This document shows, piece by piece, positions 1,392 through 22,471 of a stretch of 28,146 nucleotides of DNA (positions are counted from its first letter, which is position 1; each line of letters opens with the position of its first letter). The notes under the pieces are model-generated. The model worked only from the letters and a program-made list of their open reading frames with translations, ran no database searches and had not been told where the DNA came from. The stretch comes from a virus, in IMG/VR virus record IMGVR_UViG_3300042866_000153, positions 1 to 28,146 of that record; one strand, 5' to 3'. Both the position numbers and the translations under genes were made by a program.

Positions 1392-1715
1392 TTAGAAAGG
1401 CAACGGGGTGTTGACGGGATATACGGGGGGATTGATAAGGGAATCAATTTGCCCTTGAATGCAAGCCTCAAGATTAGCAACGCCATCAACGCCAAGTTGC
1501 TCTTGAACCCAACCGATAACGATTTCGTTGGTTAGGTCAGCGTAAGGGATGAACTCCGATACTGATTCGGTAGAGAATCGTGCGGTGTTAGATAGTGATG
1601 CGGTATACTCGCCATCAACGCCTACCACTTCGTAGTTTGCGATTACAACGTAGTCAGATTCGGTGCCGATGGTTTCGGTGTAAAGGGCAGTTACTGCCCA
1701 AGTGAAGGTTGTCAT
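1392..1715 (-). CDS. Conserved phage protein of the MTTFTW type, unknown function
   Basis: A 107-residue protein starting at ATG 1715-1713. The start overlaps the fibre gene's stop by 1 nt (TAATG), which fixes it; a longer reading from 1766 would begin inside the fibre gene. Beta-rich start (TFTWAVTALYTETIG...DYVVIANYEV), then FIPYADLTNEIVIGWVQEQLG and a Pro-rich end. I recall similar proteins, with a FxW-V start and an (F/I)P-x2-x-L-T-x4-I-x-W-V segment, beside tail fibre genes in marine and freshwater phages, usually annotated as hypothetical. A small virion or fibre-associated protein is the best guess. Confidence 0.75.
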   Translation of the reverse strand: MTTFTWAVTALYTETIGTESDYVVIANYEVVGVDGEYTASLSNTARFSTESVSEFIPYADLTNEIVIGWVQEQLGVDGVANLEACIQGQIDSLINPPVYPVNTPLPF

Positions 1716-3007
1716 TATGCTTTTAATAAGATTTTGTATGCTACTCCGTTGATGCGAACGCTCCAAGTTGTATCTGATACGACTACTTCGGTTGCGATGG
1801 CTCCTGCGTTGTAACTTGTGCTACCAACTACAAATTGGTTTGATGCGGTCGCGGTTGCTTCACGGCCTAAAATAACAGAACCACTAAAATTACCCGATTG
1901 AGTATCTTTACCAACCGCAGTATTACTAGAACCCGTTGTATTTGCATCTAAAGAAGAGCCACCCAAAGCGGTGTTGGCTGCACCCGTAGTATTTGAATCC
2001 AACGCTTGAAATCCAACGGCAGTATTGTTATTTGCCGTACTCACCAGCAAAGCTTGGTAACCGATAGCGGTGTTTTGAATGGCAATAGTATTGGCTTTTA
2101 ACGCTTGGAATCCAAGAGCGGTATTATTATTACCCGTAGATAATGTCAACGCTTGGTAGCCTATGGCAGTAACTCCCGTTCCACTCGTGTTGGAGAGTGC
2201 AGCTTCAAAGCCTACGGCAGTATTGTTAGATGCGGTGTTAGAGAATAAAGCAGATTGACCTATGGCAGTATTATTTGAACCCGTTGTATTGGAATCAAGC
2301 GCACTTCTGCCCATTACTGTATTAAAACTACCCGTACTTGTTAAACGTGAAGAGTTTAATCCTATTGAGGTGTTATCAAATCCCGTTGTATTTGATGATA
2401 GCGAGGAATTACCTACCGCAGTATTGCTCGCTGCCGTACTCAACTTCAATGCTTGGTAACCGATGGCAGTAACTCCCGCGCCACTCGTGTTGGTGAACGC
2501 TGCTTCATAACCTACGGCTACGTTGTTTGCGGCAGTGTTGGCGAATAAGGCATTACTACCTACTGATGTATTATTTGAGGTTGTAGTTACTGCGCTCAAT
2601 GCGCCATTACCAATGGCAGTATTATGAGAACCCGTAGAATTTACAATCATTGCAAATCTTCCAAGTGAGGTATTAAATTCACCCGTTGTATTTGCCTCTA
2701 AAGATTGTGTACCAATTGAAGTGTTATATGACCCCGTAGTGTTTGCGGTCAATGAAGAAGCACCAACTGACGTATTTTGAATACCTGAAGTGTTGCTATC
2801 AAGAGCCGTAGCACCAAAAGCAGTATTAGACGTAACCGCCCCTGCACCATAGTTGGTCAGCGACCCCGTTGATACAAGCAAAGGCAAATCGTTGCCTAAG
2901 CCATCAGATAAACGCTGAAGCGTTCCATCAATCGGCCCGTTATCACCTACCTTAATAAGGCTATCGTATGTGTCCTGTGGGGTTGTCCCCGTTAAAGTTG
3001 TTCCCAT
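1715..3007 (-). CDS. Tail fibre or spike with YadA-like head repeats
   Basis: A 430-residue protein. Residues 1-60 form a non-repetitive N-terminal part (virion attachment likely). Residues 61 to about 396 contain about 20 units of 15-17 residues with the pattern N-T-[AS]-[IVL]-G-x2-[AS]-L-x3-[TS], as in the left-handed beta-roll of YadA-like trimeric autotransporter heads. The last ~35 residues (EVVVSDTTWSVRINGVAYKI) are a non-repetitive C-terminal cap. Rich in Asn, Thr, Ser and Ala, with no Cys. It follows the small W-rich protein by 4 nt and overlaps the next gene by 1 nt. Receptor binding is inferred from fold type and position at the end of the structural block. Confidence 0.8.
   Translation of the reverse strand: MGTTLTGTTPQDTYDSLIKVGDNGPIDGTLQRLSDGLGNDLPLLVSTGSLTNYGAGAVTSNTAFGATALDSNTSGIQNTSVGASSLTANTTGSYNTSIGTQSLEANTTGEFNTSLGRFAMIVNSTGSHNTAIGNGALSAVTTTSNNTSVGSNALFANTAANNVAVGYEAAFTNTSGAGVTAIGYQALKLSTAASNTAVGNSSLSSNTTGFDNTSIGLNSSRLTSTGSFNTVMGRSALDSNTTGSNNTAIGQSALFSNTASNNTAVGFEAALSNTSGTGVTAIGYQALTLSTGNNNTALGFQALKANTIAIQNTAIGYQALLVSTANNNTAVGFQALDSNTTGAANTALGGSSLDANTTGSSNTAVGKDTQSGNFSGSVILGREATATASNQFVVGSTSYNAGAIATEVVVSDTTWSVRINGVAYKILLKA
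1820..2827 (-). repeat. About 20 in-frame beta-roll repeats with a 300-bp higher-order period
   Basis: The repeat units of the fibre gene are diverged at DNA level, but a block starting GGCAGTAACTCCCG at 2166 recurs at 2466, exactly 300 nt away (100 residues, six units), with most of about 57 positions the same. At protein level NTSG[AT]GVTAIGYQALxLST is the shared segment. This points to past duplication of a six-unit block. Confidence 0.75.
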
Positions 3008-8317: not shown

Positions 8318-9395
8318 TGTTTAGGTCTTCTTTGTGGTATAGGTATTCGCTTTCTTCTGTATGCTCTGCGCCAGTCATCAGTTTGCCATCAGCATCCTTG
8401 TGAGTCGGGCCTGTGTAGAGTTTGCCGTCTGCGGTGTAATGGGGTACGCCTGCCGCAAGATCAATCTTGCCGAGTTCCTTGAGTTTAGACTCTGCCCATC
8501 TCTTGCCTGCAAGACCTCCCCATAGCAGGAACGATATAGTTCCGCAGGCTTCGTTGTTACCTTCATCGTAGTATTCTTCGGCTCTTGATAGGTAAGAGTA
8601 CATCCTTGTGATTGTCTCCACGCTTACAGGCTTGCCCTGTGCTAACTGCTGCGCCCTTACTTTACCGACAGGCGTTGCACACTTGTTGCCGTTCTTCTCG
8701 TTTAGTTCAATACCACGCTTGGCGTTGTTCTTCACCGCATCTGGGTAGTCAGAATACGAGGCCATCTCGGTGCGTGTTCCCGACTTCTTACGACCATCTC
8801 TTTTTATGATAGCAACAATCTGTGCAAGCATCAACGCTGCTTCTTGCTCCTCTATTTGCGCCATCTCTTGCTTGGCAAGGTTTAGCTTGTCCACAAAGTA
8901 CCCCTCAATAGAGAATCCTTTGACCTTTCCTGTCTTGACAAAGTTTGTCCAAATCTCTGGGTTGTTTACTTTCATGCTGACCATCCAAGTGCCTATTGGC
9001 AAATCAAAGCCGTACTTCTTGCTTTTGTCTTGTATGTCATCTTCTATTATCCATGACTCTACAACCGTAAGGCCGTTGATGCCTACTTCGTGTTCAAGCG
9101 TAGCGTTGTTCTGCTTGCTCTTTTGAAAGAACATCTCGCTTGCTTTGCGGATGGTGGCTTCGCTGAAGTACACATAGAACTCCTCTTGTCCCTCTGCTCG
9201 GTAGATGGGTTTGTTGGGTACGAGTGCTGCTCCCATAAGGATGCGCTTCTCATCGCTCTGCGTAGCGAACTCCACCCTTTGTGAGTTGAGGGCAATAAAG
9301 TCCTCCTCAATAGCAGGGTATTCTACAAGGGAGATTGCATCAATGCCAGTTAGCAGCATTGTTTCATCTAGTATTAGTTCAATTAATTTCATCAT
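8310..9395 (-). CDS. XkdF-like prohead protease with extra C-terminal domain
   Basis: A 361-residue protein. Residues 40-195 match the XkdF type (PBSX-like prophage) putative prohead serine protease: KPIYRAEGQEEFYVYFSEAT, NNATLEHEVG with a candidate catalytic His, IGTWMVSMKV and GKVKGFSIEGYF with a candidate catalytic Ser. Residues 205-315 are a second domain (YPDAVKNNAKRGIELNEKNG, CATPVGKVRAQQL, YSYLSRAEEYYDEG, CGTISFLLWGGLAGKRWAES) that I recall attached to portal or protease proteins in other phages. Predicted to cleave the scaffold during head maturation. ATG 9395 or the adjacent ATG 9392 overlaps the tape measure stop. Confidence 0.8.
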   Translation of the reverse strand: MMKLIELILDETMLLTGIDAISLVEYPAIEEDFIALNSQRVEFATQSDEKRILMGAALVPNKPIYRAEGQEEFYVYFSEATIRKASEMFFQKSKQNNATLEHEVGINGLTVVESWIIEDDIQDKSKKYGFDLPIGTWMVSMKVNNPEIWTNFVKTGKVKGFSIEGYFVDKLNLAKQEMAQIEEQEAALMLAQIVAIIKRDGRKKSGTRTEMASYSDYPDAVKNNAKRGIELNEKNGNKCATPVGKVRAQQLAQGKPVSVETITRMYSYLSRAEEYYDEGNNEACGTISFLLWGGLAGKRWAESKLKELGKIDLAAGVPHYTADGKLYTGPTHKDADGKLMTGAEHTEESEYLYHKEDLNNV

Positions 9396-10930
9396 CCGAA
9401 TGTTGCGGTTCTTACTCTTTGGCGTTGTAGTTGTTGCGAGGTCGTTACGTCACTACCTACAACGTATGCACGAACGGGTTGGTTAAACTGACCACCGATG
9501 CTCTGTGCAAGTTGGTTGATTCCACCCTGTCCGACTATGTTGAACTGCGGTGCTTGTGAGGGAGCAGTTGGCGCAGATATAGTTGTTGGAGGTGCGGCAT
9601 TCGGGGAAGTAGGTATTTGCGTAGAGCCAACCTTCTTTAAGTTGGCAAGACCACCTGCAATTACGCCTGCGGCAGCGATAGCACCAAATGGTGGTGGGTA
9701 TGCACCCAATGCTTTTGTAGCACCTTGATAAGTATCAATCACAATCTGTGTCATCGCAAGTGCCTTGCTGATTTTAGTGTTCTCTCCTGCAAGTGCAGCA
9801 AATCCGCTGATTGCTCCGCTTACCGCATCAAGGTTTGCAAGGGTGAAATTAATGTAGTCGTTTAAGTCGGCTGCTGAAGTCTCTGCTCCTTTAGCGACTG
9901 ATTCAGTAAAGAACTGACCTACCCTCGCTATCTCTGCTCCACCTTGTTTGCTTGCCTCTACCGATTTATCTACAAAGTCCTTGAACTTCTTTTCGCTATT
10001 TTCAAATCTTGCTTTCTCTGCACTGGTTCTAGCGGCCTCAAGTTCCTTGATCTTGGCAATTTCCTCATTAAGCAATGACATTGTTTCAGTCTGAAGCCTA
10101 CGCCTACGCTGAATGTTTGCCTGCTCAAGCTCTGATATTCTTGCACGAGCCTCCTCAATACGCACAAGACCATCTTCGGTAACCTCACCCATCTTGGCTT
10201 GCTCTTGCAATACATTCAATCTCTGCCTCTGAACGGCTAATTCTTGGCGGGCTACTTTTTCCTCAATCGCTCCCGCTCTCGCAACCGCAGCAATCCTCTG
10301 CTCGGTGCTTTTAGTTACGTCATCAGCGATAAGGCGAGCCTCTGCAATCTGCTTGTTGGCAATAGCACGTTGTGCGATAAGCGCACGTTCAGCATCCTCT
10401 ACATCGTTGAGCTGTTTGGCAAGTTCCCTGCCGAGTTTGGTCTCCCTAACAATCTCATCACCTAACCCCTTAAAAGCACCTGCAACGCCTTCAATGGCTC
10501 CCTTGAAGTCTCCTTGAAAGAACTTAAATAAAGCCTCGCCTAATCCAATCACTCGGTCGATTACAACCTTTACCGCTGCGCCAAGCGCACCCATAACTTC
10601 AGCAAGTTTATCGCCACCACGTTCCGTTTCTTTGAAATACGCAACAAGCGATGTTACTGCGACAAGCAGCGCACCTAATCCAGTTGCAATGATAGCACCC
10701 TTTAGTGTGCCGAATGCCCGAATCGTACTTGTGATACCGCCCTGCAATCCTTTGAAAGCAGATACTGCACCACCCGTTTGTTTGTCTAATGCAGATAAGC
10801 CGTTACTAATCGCCTCATTGCTCTCTTTGGCTTTGGTTTGGGTCTTGTCAGCCTCTATCCCTACGGCTTTAAGCGCAGCGATAGCGGATGTGGCATCCCC
10901 TTTAATCTCAATTATTTCAACTGCCGCCAT
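9392..10930 (-). CDS. Tape measure protein
   Basis: A 512-residue protein, mostly helical. N-terminal IEIKGDATSAIAALKAVGIE is typical of tape measures; residues 75-105 are hydrophobic (GAIIATGLGALLVAVTSLVA); residues 165-310 are a long coiled coil rich in Ala, Glu, Arg and Gln; residues 375-425 are another hydrophobic Gly/Ala region; and the C-terminus ends AYVVGSDVTTSQQLQRQRV. It sets tail length during assembly and is ejected with DNA. At about 1.5 angstrom per residue this predicts a tail of roughly 77 nm. It is separated from the tail chaperone by five genes, whereas in lambda they are adjacent. Confidence 0.85.
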   Translation of the reverse strand: MAAVEIIEIKGDATSAIAALKAVGIEADKTQTKAKESNEAISNGLSALDKQTGGAVSAFKGLQGGITSTIRAFGTLKGAIIATGLGALLVAVTSLVAYFKETERGGDKLAEVMGALGAAVKVVIDRVIGLGEALFKFFQGDFKGAIEGVAGAFKGLGDEIVRETKLGRELAKQLNDVEDAERALIAQRAIANKQIAEARLIADDVTKSTEQRIAAVARAGAIEEKVARQELAVQRQRLNVLQEQAKMGEVTEDGLVRIEEARARISELEQANIQRRRRLQTETMSLLNEEIAKIKELEAARTSAEKARFENSEKKFKDFVDKSVEASKQGGAEIARVGQFFTESVAKGAETSAADLNDYINFTLANLDAVSGAISGFAALAGENTKISKALAMTQIVIDTYQGATKALGAYPPPFGAIAAAGVIAGGLANLKKVGSTQIPTSPNAAPPTTISAPTAPSQAPQFNIVGQGGINQLAQSIGGQFNQPVRAYVVGSDVTTSQQLQRQRVRTATFG

Positions 10931-14935: not shown

Positions 14936-15403
14936 TTAGCAGATGCTTATCTCGGTGTTTGCAAGCAGCACGTCAAACGTGGCAGTCCACCCTGCAAGCA
15001 GGTTCTCAAACCTCTCGCTAAAGGGAACGCAAGAAGCAGTACCATCCAACTGGTAAAGGTCGGTGTACAGAGTACCCCTGCGCAATTCTGTGATGACATC
15101 GTTGATTACTGCTAGTTGGGTGTTCAGTATGTTTTGCTCGTTGCTGATGCCGTAGAACGGCTCTGCCTGCAAGCGTGGATTCTCTTTGGTCTCATCTACC
15201 AAGTCCATACAAACAATGCTCACGTTCATGCGAACTATCTGTCCCTCGAATGTTGCTTGGTTGATGATAATATGCGACAAAGGGAAGATGGTCTGCTTGT
15301 TTAGGTCTATGTCAAAAATATCCCCTGTTGTTACCACGTTGACTTGGCTATTTGCTTCAAGCGTATCTTTTAATTTGGTGGTGATGTCGTAGAATTGTCT
15401 CAT
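14936..15403 (-). CDS. Tail completion/terminator-like protein
   Basis: A 155-residue protein whose ATG overlaps, as ATGA, the stop of the -1 frame of the tail chaperone. It starts MRQFYDITTKLKDTLEANSQ and continues with strands IIINQATFEGQIVRMNVSIVCMDLVD, then a helix AVINDVITELRRGTL and a strand end GWTATFDVLLAN. This alpha/beta order (helix, strands, helix, strand) and length match the tail terminator or neck family, and the gp10-like gene next to it agrees. Assignment is by order and length, so moderate. Confidence 0.55.
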   Translation of the reverse strand: MRQFYDITTKLKDTLEANSQVNVVTTGDIFDIDLNKQTIFPLSHIIINQATFEGQIVRMNVSIVCMDLVDETKENPRLQAEPFYGISNEQNILNTQLAVINDVITELRRGTLYTDLYQLDGTASCVPFSERFENLLAGWTATFDVLLANTEISIC

Positions 15404-15657
15404 TTTATTGACTTTTTTATTAGGTCGTTTTCAACTTCTTGCTTTTGCTTTTCAAATGTGAGGAAATGAAGACACTCTTGGAGTTCCAATTTAGTGACTC
15501 CTCCAAACCTTCTAATATCTCCTTGAGCAAGTTGATATATTGTAGCGTACCATCCCCAACGAGCGGCGAATTGTCCTTGCTTGGAGTATTCGTTTTCTGG
15601 TTCCCTTTCTCCAAAGAGGTCAGGGAAGCCCGCAATAATTCGTTCCCTAAACGCCAA
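15400..15657 (-). CDS. -1 frame extension of the tail assembly chaperone (GT-like)
   Basis: Open from the slippery T run to TGA at 15400-15402. Read as a -1 frameshift after F160 of the 0-frame gene it adds 85 residues, giving a 245-residue fusion. The extension starts LAFRERIIAGFPDLFGEREP and has SKQGQFAARWGWYATIYQLAQ, VTKLELQECLHFLTFEKQK and a basic end, a pattern I recall from Bacteroidota phage tail chaperones. Its stop is ATGA-coupled to the next gene, which argues that this frame is translated. The only start codon available in this frame is TTG at 15657, right in the T run, so frameshifting is more likely than independent initiation. Confidence 0.75.
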   Translation of the reverse strand: MAFRERIIAGFPDLFGEREPENEYSKQGQFAARWGWYATIYQLAQGDIRRFGGVTKLELQECLHFLTFEKQKQEVENDLIKKSIK

Positions 15658-16136
15658 AAAAAAAGCGATGCGCCCATTGCAACACTCATCGGGGCTTGCT
15701 TCATCTGCTCCGAATACCTGCTTGACCCTTCGTATGGCTCTATCAGATACCGATGCTTGACCTCGCTTGTTATTGGGCGATACAATACTGCCATCACTTT
15801 GTGCAGGTCTTGCACATCTTGCAGGTAGCCATCAAGGTCAACGAACTCACCATAGGTGATGTTGTCAATCTCTGGGATGAACCCGTACTTCGTGTCCCCC
15901 ATCGTGAAGGTTGGCGTGAGGCTTGGCTTCTCATTTATCATGGCCATTATGTGCTTGCTGATGTGGCTCACATCTTTGATGCGCACATTGGGCAACTGCG
16001 CCAGAGGCACTCCGCAGAATATCTCAAGCATCTTGTGGGTCAAGAACTCCTCATCGCCCTCAAGCCTCGCAAAGCGTTGGTATTGGTCAAGCGTGATCTC
16101 TGATAGGGCGGTGGGTACAATTACCTTTAGTTCCAT
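15420..16136 (-). CDS. Tail assembly chaperone, 0 frame (G-like)
   Basis: A 238-residue protein. Residues 1-157 hold a conserved-looking domain: ITLDQYQRFARLEGDEEFLT, MLEIFCGVPLAQLPNVRIKD, YGFIPEIDNITYGEFVDLDG, MAVLYRPITSEV and YLIEPYEGSSRYSEQMKQ. Then SLFFWRLGNELLR across the T9 run and a C-terminal helix LQYINLLKEILEGLEESL. By analogy with lambda gpG it would bind the tape measure and help tube assembly. Start ATG 16136, 13-14 nt after AAAAGG. The last 78 codons are coding in two frames. Unlike lambda, the gene sits directly after TerL, far from the tape measure. Confidence 0.7.
   Translation of the reverse strand: MELKVIVPTALSEITLDQYQRFARLEGDEEFLTHKMLEIFCGVPLAQLPNVRIKDVSHISKHIMAMINEKPSLTPTFTMGDTKYGFIPEIDNITYGEFVDLDGYLQDVQDLHKVMAVLYRPITSEVKHRYLIEPYEGSSRYSEQMKQAPMSVAMGASLFFWRLGNELLRASLTSLEKGNQKTNTPSKDNSPLVGDGTLQYINLLKEILEGLEESLNWNSKSVFISSHLKSKSKKLKTT
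15655..15665 (-). promoter_or_regulatory. Slippery site for programmed -1 frameshift
   Basis: On the minus strand: C then nine T then G, read in the 0 frame as CTT TTT TTT TGG. This contains the canonical X-XXY-YYZ heptamer as T TTT TTT. Slipping one base back after the second TTT puts the ribosome on TTG GCG TTT, the start of the 85-codon -1 frame. It is at codons 158-161 of the chaperone gene. Sequencing or assembly error in the homopolymer is the alternative, but both downstream frames look coding. Confidence 0.7.
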
Positions 16137-16159: not shown

Positions 16160-17320
16160 TTAGCGTATGGCATACCTGCCAAAGTTAGGTCTGCTCAACT
16201 TGTTATACGTTGCATAGCGCAGCGCATCTATGGCGTGATTGAATGCATCTATGGGTTTGTTTAAGAGGTTGCCGTTCTTGTCCTCTACCCATTTGTAGTT
16301 CTGAAGTTCCTTGATTAGGTTGCTGCTTCGTGGTGTTACGAATAGTTTGTGCCGCTTTAGCACGTCAATACCCACTATGACGCTATCTGCGCCCTTCTGC
16401 GTGGGTTTCACGTTCCATCCCATACGATGCAGCTCCTCGATGCTTTTGGGTTCAGCAGAGTCAGCATATATCTCTGCCCTTCGGTCAAGGCCAAGTGAGG
16501 CAAGTACGTTGCTGATGTCGGGGTTGGTCATCCCCGTGCGGTAAATCAATTCATCCACATACAGATTGTCACCCGACTTATAGACCGCCACAAGTGCGGT
16601 AGGGTCATTGGTGTACCCAAAGTCCATCCCGTGACATAAGAGCGTGGCATCAGTTGGTATCTCTGCCTGCCCGTATTGGAAGATGGTGGCTCTGCTCATA
16701 CCACGTTCTCCGAGTCCGTAGATTCTCCAATAGTCATTGTCCGTATGTTGCAGCCTTTCTATCTCCTCAACGATTGAGGCATCCAAGAACGGATTATCAA
16801 GGTATGTGGATTGGATGTACGTTACGTCATCACGAGTCAGCAACTTGTCGTATATCCAATGGAACGCGTCTGAAGGGTTGTAGTCAACCCATATCTTGCC
16901 TGTGGTACGAATCAAGAGCTGAAAGAAATCCTCCCAAGTGAGTTCGTTTGCCTCGTTGCAGAATAGGTAGTCACGTCTTGCTCCCCGTTTCTTCTGCGGT
17001 TGGTCAAGGCTTATGAACTCAAAGAGGTTGCCATTCAACTCGTAGGTGTAGTCGCTCTTATTATGCCGTGCCTCATCGTAAAGATTGTTGGCATTTAGAA
17101 TCTCAAAGAAGTCACGATAGGCCGTCATCTTCAGAGACGGCAGAGACTTGCGGACAATGGAGTACACCTTGCCTCTATCCTCCATCGCCATCACGATGAG
17201 CATCTGCAAAAGCGAGTACGTCTTACCAGAACGGCTGCCGCCTTGATTGACTACTATCCGAGTTGGTGCGGTGTAGTTCTTCTCAAAGAGTTCACTACTC
17301 TTTAGGTTTAGCTCGGACAA
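16160..17320 (-). CDS. terL: Terminase large subunit
   Basis: A 386-residue packaging motor with a complete ATPase and nuclease. ATPase: Walker A GGSRSGKT at 27-34, Walker B YLFCNEA at 118-124 with catalytic Glu123, coupling-like SILSTYLDNPFL equivalent YIQSTYLDNPFL. RNase H-like nuclease: Asp233 in GMDFGYTND, Asp287 in IYADSAEPKSIEEL and Asp365 in HAIDALRYA. The layout is that of the PBSX/T4-like Terminase_6 group, short form. The start is TTG at 17320, overlapping the TerS stop by 26 nt; no ATG lies before Walker A. It cuts concatemers and drives DNA into the prohead. Confidence 0.95.
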   Translation of the reverse strand: MSELNLKSSELFEKNYTAPTRIVVNQGGSRSGKTYSLLQMLIVMAMEDRGKVYSIVRKSLPSLKMTAYRDFFEILNANNLYDEARHNKSDYTYELNGNLFEFISLDQPQKKRGARRDYLFCNEANELTWEDFFQLLIRTTGKIWVDYNPSDAFHWIYDKLLTRDDVTYIQSTYLDNPFLDASIVEEIERLQHTDNDYWRIYGLGERGMSRATIFQYGQAEIPTDATLLCHGMDFGYTNDPTALVAVYKSGDNLYVDELIYRTGMTNPDISNVLASLGLDRRAEIYADSAEPKSIEELHRMGWNVKPTQKGADSVIVGIDVLKRHKLFVTPRSSNLIKELQNYKWVEDKNGNLLNKPIDAFNHAIDALRYATYNKLSRPNFGRYAIR

Positions 17321-20996: not shown

Positions 20997-22307
20997 TTAA
21001 TTAAATAAAGGTAAACATTTTTTAGCGACTGCTGCAACCACGTCAACTGTTACTGCGTTACCGCATTGCTTGTATCGTTGGGAGTTGCTCATAGGCTTTA
21101 CTTCTCCATCGTAGTTGCCATAGGCCGTATGCTGATCTGGGAATCCCTGTAAGCGTTCACATTCAATAGGTGTTAGCCTACGGATTCGGTAGCCATCAAA
21201 TAGGCTGATGCCGTTGTGTTCGGGTTGCGTTAGTGTAGGTGATTCATCACGCAGGGTTTTGTTGTACAAGTCCATTGCCTTAACCTCTCCCTCCCTAAAG
21301 TCATTCCGTCTGATGGTCTCGTTGACTTTCTCGTAGGTATAATTTGGTTGAACTACTGCTTGATTGCAACTCGTTTCAAGTGTCTGCGCCTTCTGCTTTC
21401 CTACACGGCCTCTGCGAGTTTCGCTTTGGGTGCGAGAAGTGTAAATGGTATCACCGCTTGTTGCTTCTTCGTACCCTAAACTTGTGGCTGACTTTACTCG
21501 TAGAATCAAATCACTTTTACCTTGATTAAGAGCAGGAACAATACCATCAGCATCGTACACTCGGTCTTGCTGGTAGGGTTGAGTGCCGCTATTAGAATCA
21601 AGTCTAGTTCCGATTTGCTTGACCTGTACTTTTGTTGGGTCTTTGTAGCAGCAAGCACTCAACGTAGGGGCAATCCCAGCTTCGCCATAGATGAATCCTT
21701 GCTGACCGCCTGTACCACGATGACCTACTATTTCAACCCCGTGTTGTTCAGTATTTGATTTATTGTTTTCTGCGATAGGAAGTACTCCTCGCCAATCTCC
21801 TCCTGTGGTTGTAGAATATCCGACAAGGTATATCCGCTCTCTATTTTGGGGTAGAAACCAACTTGTATTAAGCAGTTGCCATTCAAGTCTATAACCCCCA
21901 ATGTCGGTAAAGGCTTGGATAATCGCCCAAAAGTCTGCGCCATCATTTGAGGAGAATGTCCCTTTAACATTTTCCCAGACAAATACACTTGGTCGGCATT
22001 CGCTAATAAGACGGATTGCTTCGAGGACAAGAGAACTTCTTTGTCCTTCCATCCCCTTTCGGTTTCCTGCCAATGAGAAATCTTGGCAAGGACTTCCAAA
22101 AGTGATGAGGTTGATTCTTGGAAGGTCTGCTCCTCGAACATTGGTAACTGAACCGACATAGGTTGAGGTTGGGAATTGATGTTTGTAAACTGCGATTGCG
22201 TGTTTGTCTATCTCCGAGAAGTAGGATGTTATTTCATATCCTGCTCGCTCAAAGCCTAAATGGAATCCACCTATCCCACTAAACAAATCAAGGTGGTTGA
22301 TCTTCAT
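20997..22307 (-). CDS. DNA (cytosine-5) methyltransferase
   Basis: A 436-residue enzyme with motif I DLFSGIGGFHLGFERAG at 7-23, motif IV GSPCQDFSLAGNRKG at 71-85 with catalytic Cys74, motif VI WENVKG at 111-116, motif VIII QNRERIYLVG at 154-163, a variable target recognition region from about 170 to 340 and motifs IX-X (RRLTPIECERLQGFPDQHT, QCGNAVTVDVVAAV) at the end. The start ATG 22307 is ATGA-coupled to the upstream gene. It adds 5-methylcytosine to phage DNA, likely to avoid host restriction. No restriction enzyme is adjacent. An internal 143-codon overlap in another frame is a shadow. Confidence 0.92.
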   Translation of the reverse strand: MKINHLDLFSGIGGFHLGFERAGYEITSYFSEIDKHAIAVYKHQFPTSTYVGSVTNVRGADLPRINLITFGSPCQDFSLAGNRKGMEGQRSSLVLEAIRLISECRPSVFVWENVKGTFSSNDGADFWAIIQAFTDIGGYRLEWQLLNTSWFLPQNRERIYLVGYSTTTGGDWRGVLPIAENNKSNTEQHGVEIVGHRGTGGQQGFIYGEAGIAPTLSACCYKDPTKVQVKQIGTRLDSNSGTQPYQQDRVYDADGIVPALNQGKSDLILRVKSATSLGYEEATSGDTIYTSRTQSETRRGRVGKQKAQTLETSCNQAVVQPNYTYEKVNETIRRNDFREGEVKAMDLYNKTLRDESPTLTQPEHNGISLFDGYRIRRLTPIECERLQGFPDQHTAYGNYDGEVKPMSNSQRYKQCGNAVTVDVVAAVAKKCLPLFN

Positions 22308-22471
22308 TTGTTGAATGTTGCTTCGTGCCATTGCTCAAATGGAACACTAACTGATGAATCGCGGTAAGCGTAACGCAAGTGTATGGTCTCAATAGTTTCA
22401 ATGTCTTTTAGGATTGATTCTGACAGGCCACAGGTCTTGAGGTCTCGGAGTATTTGGGAGATAGTTTGCAT
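22304..22471 (-). CDS. 55-residue protein of unknown function
   Basis: Starts at ATG 22471, five bases after an AAAACCAATC element; upstream in-frame starts would run into the preceding gene. Starts MQTISQILRDLKTCGLSESI, helical, then LKDIETIETIHLRYAYRDSS and WHEATFNK. The stop is ATGA-coupled to the methyltransferase. No family recognised; small regulatory partner possible only by position. Confidence 0.7.
   Translation of the reverse strand: MQTISQILRDLKTCGLSESILKDIETIETIHLRYAYRDSSVSVPFEQWHEATFNK

Follow-up and report, generated by a model that had tools for sequence, protein, structure and literature searches.

The gene that follows the terminase in this tailed phage very probably makes two proteins, which share a common front half and differ in their tails, by a -1 slip at a run of nine T's (T9). 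We consider it likely, at a probability of about 0.7, that the gene works like the tail-assembly-chaperone gene G/GT of phage lambda, which uses a -1 frame change. Comparison of homologous loci indicates that the slip site and both reading frames are conserved and under constraint. We infer production of both proteins, a mainly ribosomal frame change and a role of the products as chaperones of tail assembly. As judged from the alignments, constraint is strong on both frames near the site only; at greater distance constraint acts chiefly on the -1 frame, and the 0 frame appears to be mainly kept open.

Organization of the locus

The window (the whole stretch of 28,146 nucleotides analyzed here) comes from the record of a tailed phage, in which terminase, portal, protease and tape-measure-like genes are present. 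The features of the locus are the following.

16160..17320, minus strand: preceding gene, terminase large subunit (Terminase_3, E = 3.7e-26; Terminase_3C, E = 4.8e-21)
16136..15420, minus strand: 0-frame ORF encoding the G-like product, 238 codons, 238 aa; in the AlphaFold2 model, a folded N-terminal domain of about 165 aa, a helix (150-181) across the slip site and a disordered tail
15664..15656, minus strand: T9 run, codons CTT TTT TTT TGG (158-161)
15663..15657, minus strand: slippery heptamer T_TTT_TTT, third base of codon 158 plus codons 159 and 160
15657..15400, minus strand: -1 extension encoding the T-like domain, 85 codons plus stop; fusion product of 245 aa
15420..15657, minus strand: dual-coded region, 238 nt, with both frames open in the clade of the window
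15597..15656, minus strand: proximal 20 codons after the site, with the strongest dual constraint
15420..15596, minus strand: distal 0-frame tail, predicted to be disordered, with weak amino acid constraint, stop-free
15403..15400, minus strand: ATGA overlap of the -1 stop TGA with the ATG of the next gene
14936..15403, minus strand: next gene, 155 aa, phrog_30964 (unknown function)

The heptamer lies in exactly the phase required for a tandem -1 slip, past which the -1 frame reads ...LFF-LAFRERIIAGF... and ends at a TGA (15402..15400), 20 nt beyond the 0-frame stop. An earlier note on this DNA had described products of 238 and 245 residues sharing 238 nt and ending 20 nt apart, the T9 heptamer at codons 158-161 and the ATGA link of the -1 stop to the next gene, and all of these were verified. 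The offset of the ATGA is identical in 81 of 166 homologous loci. Within each clade, the 0-frame stop lies at an almost constant distance from the next ATG (16-19, 64-67 or 84-86 nt), a hint of translational coupling. The 0-frame ORF matches phrog_32199 (E = 4.5e-21), a family of unknown function. Between it and the tape-measure-like gene (9392-10930) lie four other genes. Elsewhere in the window, positions 1715-3007 encode a 430-aa protein made of short NTAxGxxAL-type repeats, probably a fiber or surface protein, and positions 20997-22331 encode a 444-aa C5 cytosine methyltransferase-like protein, which is overlapped in another frame by an ORF of 143 aa (21728-22159).

Conservation of the slip site

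Homologs were searched with the whole protein, the -1 domain alone, the relative in Nonlabens phage P12024S, a DNA pattern and a divergent alignment, which together gave several hundred loci; the T run was a precondition in the DNA-pattern search alone. Of the 174 distinct sites, 173 were T9 and one was T10, in the same frame throughout; this tally was itself drawn from runs of 9 to 10 T's, and the sites that were read directly show no other kind. The divergent set added about 80 loci, all of them with T9 or T10 on inspection. At every site collected the heptamer T_TTT_TTT, which fits the X_XXY_YYZ pattern of -1 frameshift sites, was in phase and the run was never shorter than nine. The codon preceding the two Phe codons was CTT, GTT, ATT or TTT, so that its third base was invariably T. 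Given local codon usage, the expected retention of the heptamer had a summed log10 P of about -29 across 29 clusters (<75% identity), which share ancestry and are not fully independent.

In the window itself the T9 is the sole run of its kind, and one is found where composition predicts 1.14. This count is near chance, so the evidential weight must come from conservation, which by this comparison far exceeds chance. A chance T9 was ruled out on this ground. An error of assembly in the length of the run is unlikely, since the same run occurs in hundreds of separate contigs and in the record of the P12024S isolate. One locus (L421) considered as an exception to T9 turned out to carry a T10. No relative of the gene was found in a scan of bacterial and archaeal genomes.

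Constraint on the two reading frames

Comparative evidence indicates that the -1 frame is read from the slip site onward. Just past the site, where the 0 frame encodes [YW]-x-L-G-N, the codons GGT and AAT would each create a stop in the -1 frame. GGT was used in 0 of 173 cases, versus 37% upstream in the same genes, and AAT in 0 of 165, versus 64% upstream. The -1-frame ratio in the selection test over the overlap was 0.14 to 0.36 in five clades. The -1 domain (87 residues) was modeled by AlphaFold2 as helices with a mean pLDDT of 85 and is thus predicted to fold as a helical domain. The conservation of the heptamer together with both frames is comparative evidence for a frame change that fuses this second domain onto the same N-terminal domain. 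The alternative that the -1 domain is a separate protein made by internal initiation, with no fusion, has a parallel in the annotation of P12024S, where the end of the -1 ORF is given as a separate gene whose ATG overlaps the 0-frame stop. Such initiation would require neither an invariant heptamer nor a -1 frame that is stop-free from the slip site, and the -1 extension in the window has no Met codon at all, which makes this alternative very improbable.

Selection on the overlap and the occurrence of stops were assessed with approximate parsimony and pairwise methods. The 0-frame ratio over the whole overlap was 0.22 to 0.51, versus 0.68 to 1.3 in a phantom-frame control of the same geometry placed upstream. 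Three clades showed this constraint clearly, whereas the window clade (P = 0.88) and cluster 2 (P = 0.81) did not reach significance. When the five clades were pooled, constraint on the 0 frame was found in the proximal part (z = -2.9) and in the distal part (z = -2.1); in the window clade alone, the distal amino acid test was not significant (P = 0.81). The comparison of homologs proposed in the earlier note thus reveals purifying selection on both frames in the pooled data, without significance for the 0 frame of the window clade. The synonymous rate in the first 20 codons was 0.23 times that of the upstream control (pooled z = -7.0), and in the remainder of the overlap it was 0.69 times the upstream rate (z = -3.1). 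There was no synonymous suppression in the distal part in the window clade, and the use of the -1-only tail as an internal control of the synonymous rate showed no significant difference.

The proximal codons carry recognizable motifs in both frames, a helix with FF[YW]xLGN[ED]L in the 0 frame and FFLxFRxR in the -1 frame. The distal 0-frame tail, about 57 codons after these first 20 or so, has a pLDDT mostly between 29 and 58 in an AlphaFold2 model whose N-terminal domain is confident. A 0-frame GDG[IT] motif was set aside as evidence, as it looks like a by-product of the WGWY motif of the -1 frame. Since a stop-free 0 frame in a single sequence is weak evidence (about 0.15 for the window clade), stops were counted on trees. 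In the core of the distal part, 11.5 stops were expected and none was observed (P = 1e-5; 6.6 expected and none observed in the window clade), and the final 15 codons of the 0 frame tolerate stops. The near-complete two-frame overlap described from the window is supported by the several hundred homologous loci. The accompanying claim that both tails look like protein holds for the whole -1 tail and for the first 20 or so codons of the 0-frame tail, the rest of which is predicted to be disordered and is weakly constrained.

The overlap is not equally long in all relatives. In P12024S and in five other loci (L164, L304, L280, L246 and L343), the 0 frame stops 16 to 39 codons past the site, but the -1 frame continues without a stop for about 80 to 85 codons. 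Homologs that keep only one frame, which had been named as evidence against dual coding, thus exist in part, and the short 0-frame tails make the long overlap a feature of a lineage. It is quite possible, though at somewhat less than even odds, that the long 0-frame tail has no function as protein and is kept open so that most ribosomes end near the next gene, which would preserve coupling. The 0 frame of the window clade does end 16 to 19 nt ahead of the next ATG, and its distal part combines predicted disorder and unsuppressed synonymous change with a stop-free core. In other clades, however, the 0 frame ends 64 to 86 nt before the next gene, the relatives with early stops dispense with the tail, and the distal constraint is weakly significant over the five pooled clades.

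Slippage by the ribosome or by RNA polymerase

We think it somewhat probable that the frame change is ribosomal. In Escherichia coli, U_UUU_UUU belongs to the motifs with a shift frequency above 0.10% in the absence of stimulators (PMC4066793), and the known frame changes of tail chaperones are ribosomal (PMC5009743). No conserved or excess folding of the RNA was found downstream of the site (mean z of about 0 for folding without pseudoknots). An upstream Shine-Dalgarno-like stimulator is not general either: SD-like 4-mers occur in 32 of 174 sites and are concentrated in a few clades. Stimulators of -1 frameshifting are common and not obligatory.

The rival explanation is that RNA polymerase slips on the T9 and adds or drops U's, and that normal translation of the altered mRNAs yields the -1 product. 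On runs of nine A's or T's, bacterial RNA polymerase is known to slip efficiently, and the dnaX gene of Thermus uses this (reviewed in PMC5009743). Such slippage needs neither a downstream structure nor an SD-like stimulator, which is consistent with their absence here, and the run had fewer than nine T's at none of the sites collected. On the other hand, coding can account for the two T's in excess of the heptamer: the two Phe are always preceded by L, V, I or F, and the -1 residue that follows them is nearly always Leu. Hydrophobic columns as strict as these make up 11 of the 38 in the 0-frame alignment, the three columns of the site included. Together with the ribosomal precedent among tail chaperones, this makes polymerase slippage the less probable route, though one with an appreciable chance. 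Slightly less probable is the broader proposition that, in a widespread phage family with relatives infecting Flavobacteriaceae, polymerase slippage at an invariant T9 sets the ratio of the two tail-chaperone products, with about 235 nt dual-coded. Because the extra T's are explicable by the flanking hydrophobic residues, sequence alone does not decide the mechanism.

Identity of the products

Tail assembly chaperones of the G/GT type are built in this way, with a common N-terminal domain and a -1 domain as the alternative ending. Their frameshifting is found widely among long-tailed phages, and such chaperones are known to share little sequence (PMC5009743). In agreement with a tail function, the best named structural matches (BFVD, Foldseek) were tail assembly chaperones, although weak (E = 0.11 and 0.46), and a few members of the family weakly match a PHROG "tail protein" family. 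In hhalign comparisons, neither lambda G nor lambda T proved similar in sequence (probability <1%), Pfam and NCBIfam searches assigned no family, and a fold search of the PDB gave no significant match.

The gene adjoins the terminase and is not directly upstream of the tape measure, the position expected of G/GT. This placement, with the lack of a sequence or PDB-fold match to known chaperones, would suit a family that is expressed by frameshifting and acts as another protein of head or tail morphogenesis. We regard this as rather unlikely. A shared N-terminal domain combined with an alternative -1 domain, in a virus that has a tape measure, is what G/GT genes typically show. In the ORF list, no comparable pair of overlapping frames directly precedes the tape-measure-like gene, and the weak matches of fold and PHROG family point to the tail. 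The frameshifted chaperone proposed in the earlier note thus gains support from homologous loci for its frame change; its chaperone role is likely, and ribosomal slippage is favored over slippage by the polymerase.

In the model that we propose, most ribosomes would remain in the 0 frame and make the 238-aa protein, with its folded N-terminal domain, long helix and loose tail, the helix from the N-terminal domain continuing through the slip site. A minority would switch to the -1 frame at T_TTT_TTT and make the 245-aa fusion of the same N-terminal domain with a folded helical C-terminal domain. The two products may then chaperone tail assembly, and the -1 domain would bring in the tail-tube protein, which is the role of gpT in lambda. 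In chaperones of the G/GT type, the tape measure is bound by the N-terminal domain and the tail-tube protein by the extension, and neither product is part of the virion.

Significance

Frameshifted tail chaperones are already known; as far as we found, the family with an invariant T9 and the length of its overlap are new, though longer overlaps may be recorded elsewhere. In annotated frameshifts of actinobacteriophages (SEA-PHAGES training set), the slip site lies on average 26 nt from the 0-frame stop (PMC10885494), versus about 234 nt here. A predictor missed nearly all sites with long distances from slip to stop (PMC10885494), so annotation can miss such cases, as in P12024S. Frameshifts of tail chaperones are commonly taken to involve little overlap, close to the end of G; here both frames are constrained near the site. 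With its hundreds of natural sequences, the family lends itself to dissecting a homopolymer slip site and coding in two frames, and it should allow slippage by the ribosome to be told cleanly from slippage by the polymerase.

Comparison with known systems

The dnaX gene of Thermus thermophilus resembles the gene described here in that a run of nine T's lets a single gene give two products (PMC5009743), but it does so by transcriptional slippage, is a cellular replication gene and has no homology to it. Flavobacterium phage 6H encodes a distant homolog of the N-terminal domain, AGN89393 (hhalign, E = 2.9e-6), which is probably the Foldseek match R9VW65. It differs in that the corresponding position holds a T6C run and the -1 frame is not open there. 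At this locus (L341, 10044-10392), AGN89393 ends at the T6C with an immediate -1 stop, and an unannotated ORF of 105 codons follows in another frame. The arrangement reflects either recoding by another route or an error in the sequence. Phage 6H was rejected as a second annotated example, as the -1 domain has no match in the ORF that comes after AGN89393.

Lambda G/GT differs in that the annotated G and T overlap by 19 nt, versus 238 nt here; the -1 product here is just 7 aa longer than the 0-frame product, the sequences have no detectable similarity, and here the tape measure is not adjacent to the gene. The two systems have in common a shared N-terminal domain, a -1 frame change, a minor and longer product of two domains and a virus with a tape measure. 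The relative in Nonlabens phage P12024S (Inhavirus, JQ823122.1), P12024S_38/39, is a homologous gene that also follows the terminase, carries the same T9 and encodes a homologous -1 domain, but its 0 frame ends 25 codons past the site and its frameshift is unannotated. There (L081, 9444-9692), P12024S_38 and P12024S_39 are annotated as separate, unrelated hypothetical genes, and the T9 and open -1 frame suggest that they are joined by a frameshift fusion. Phage P12024L looks like P12024S at this locus (tblastn).
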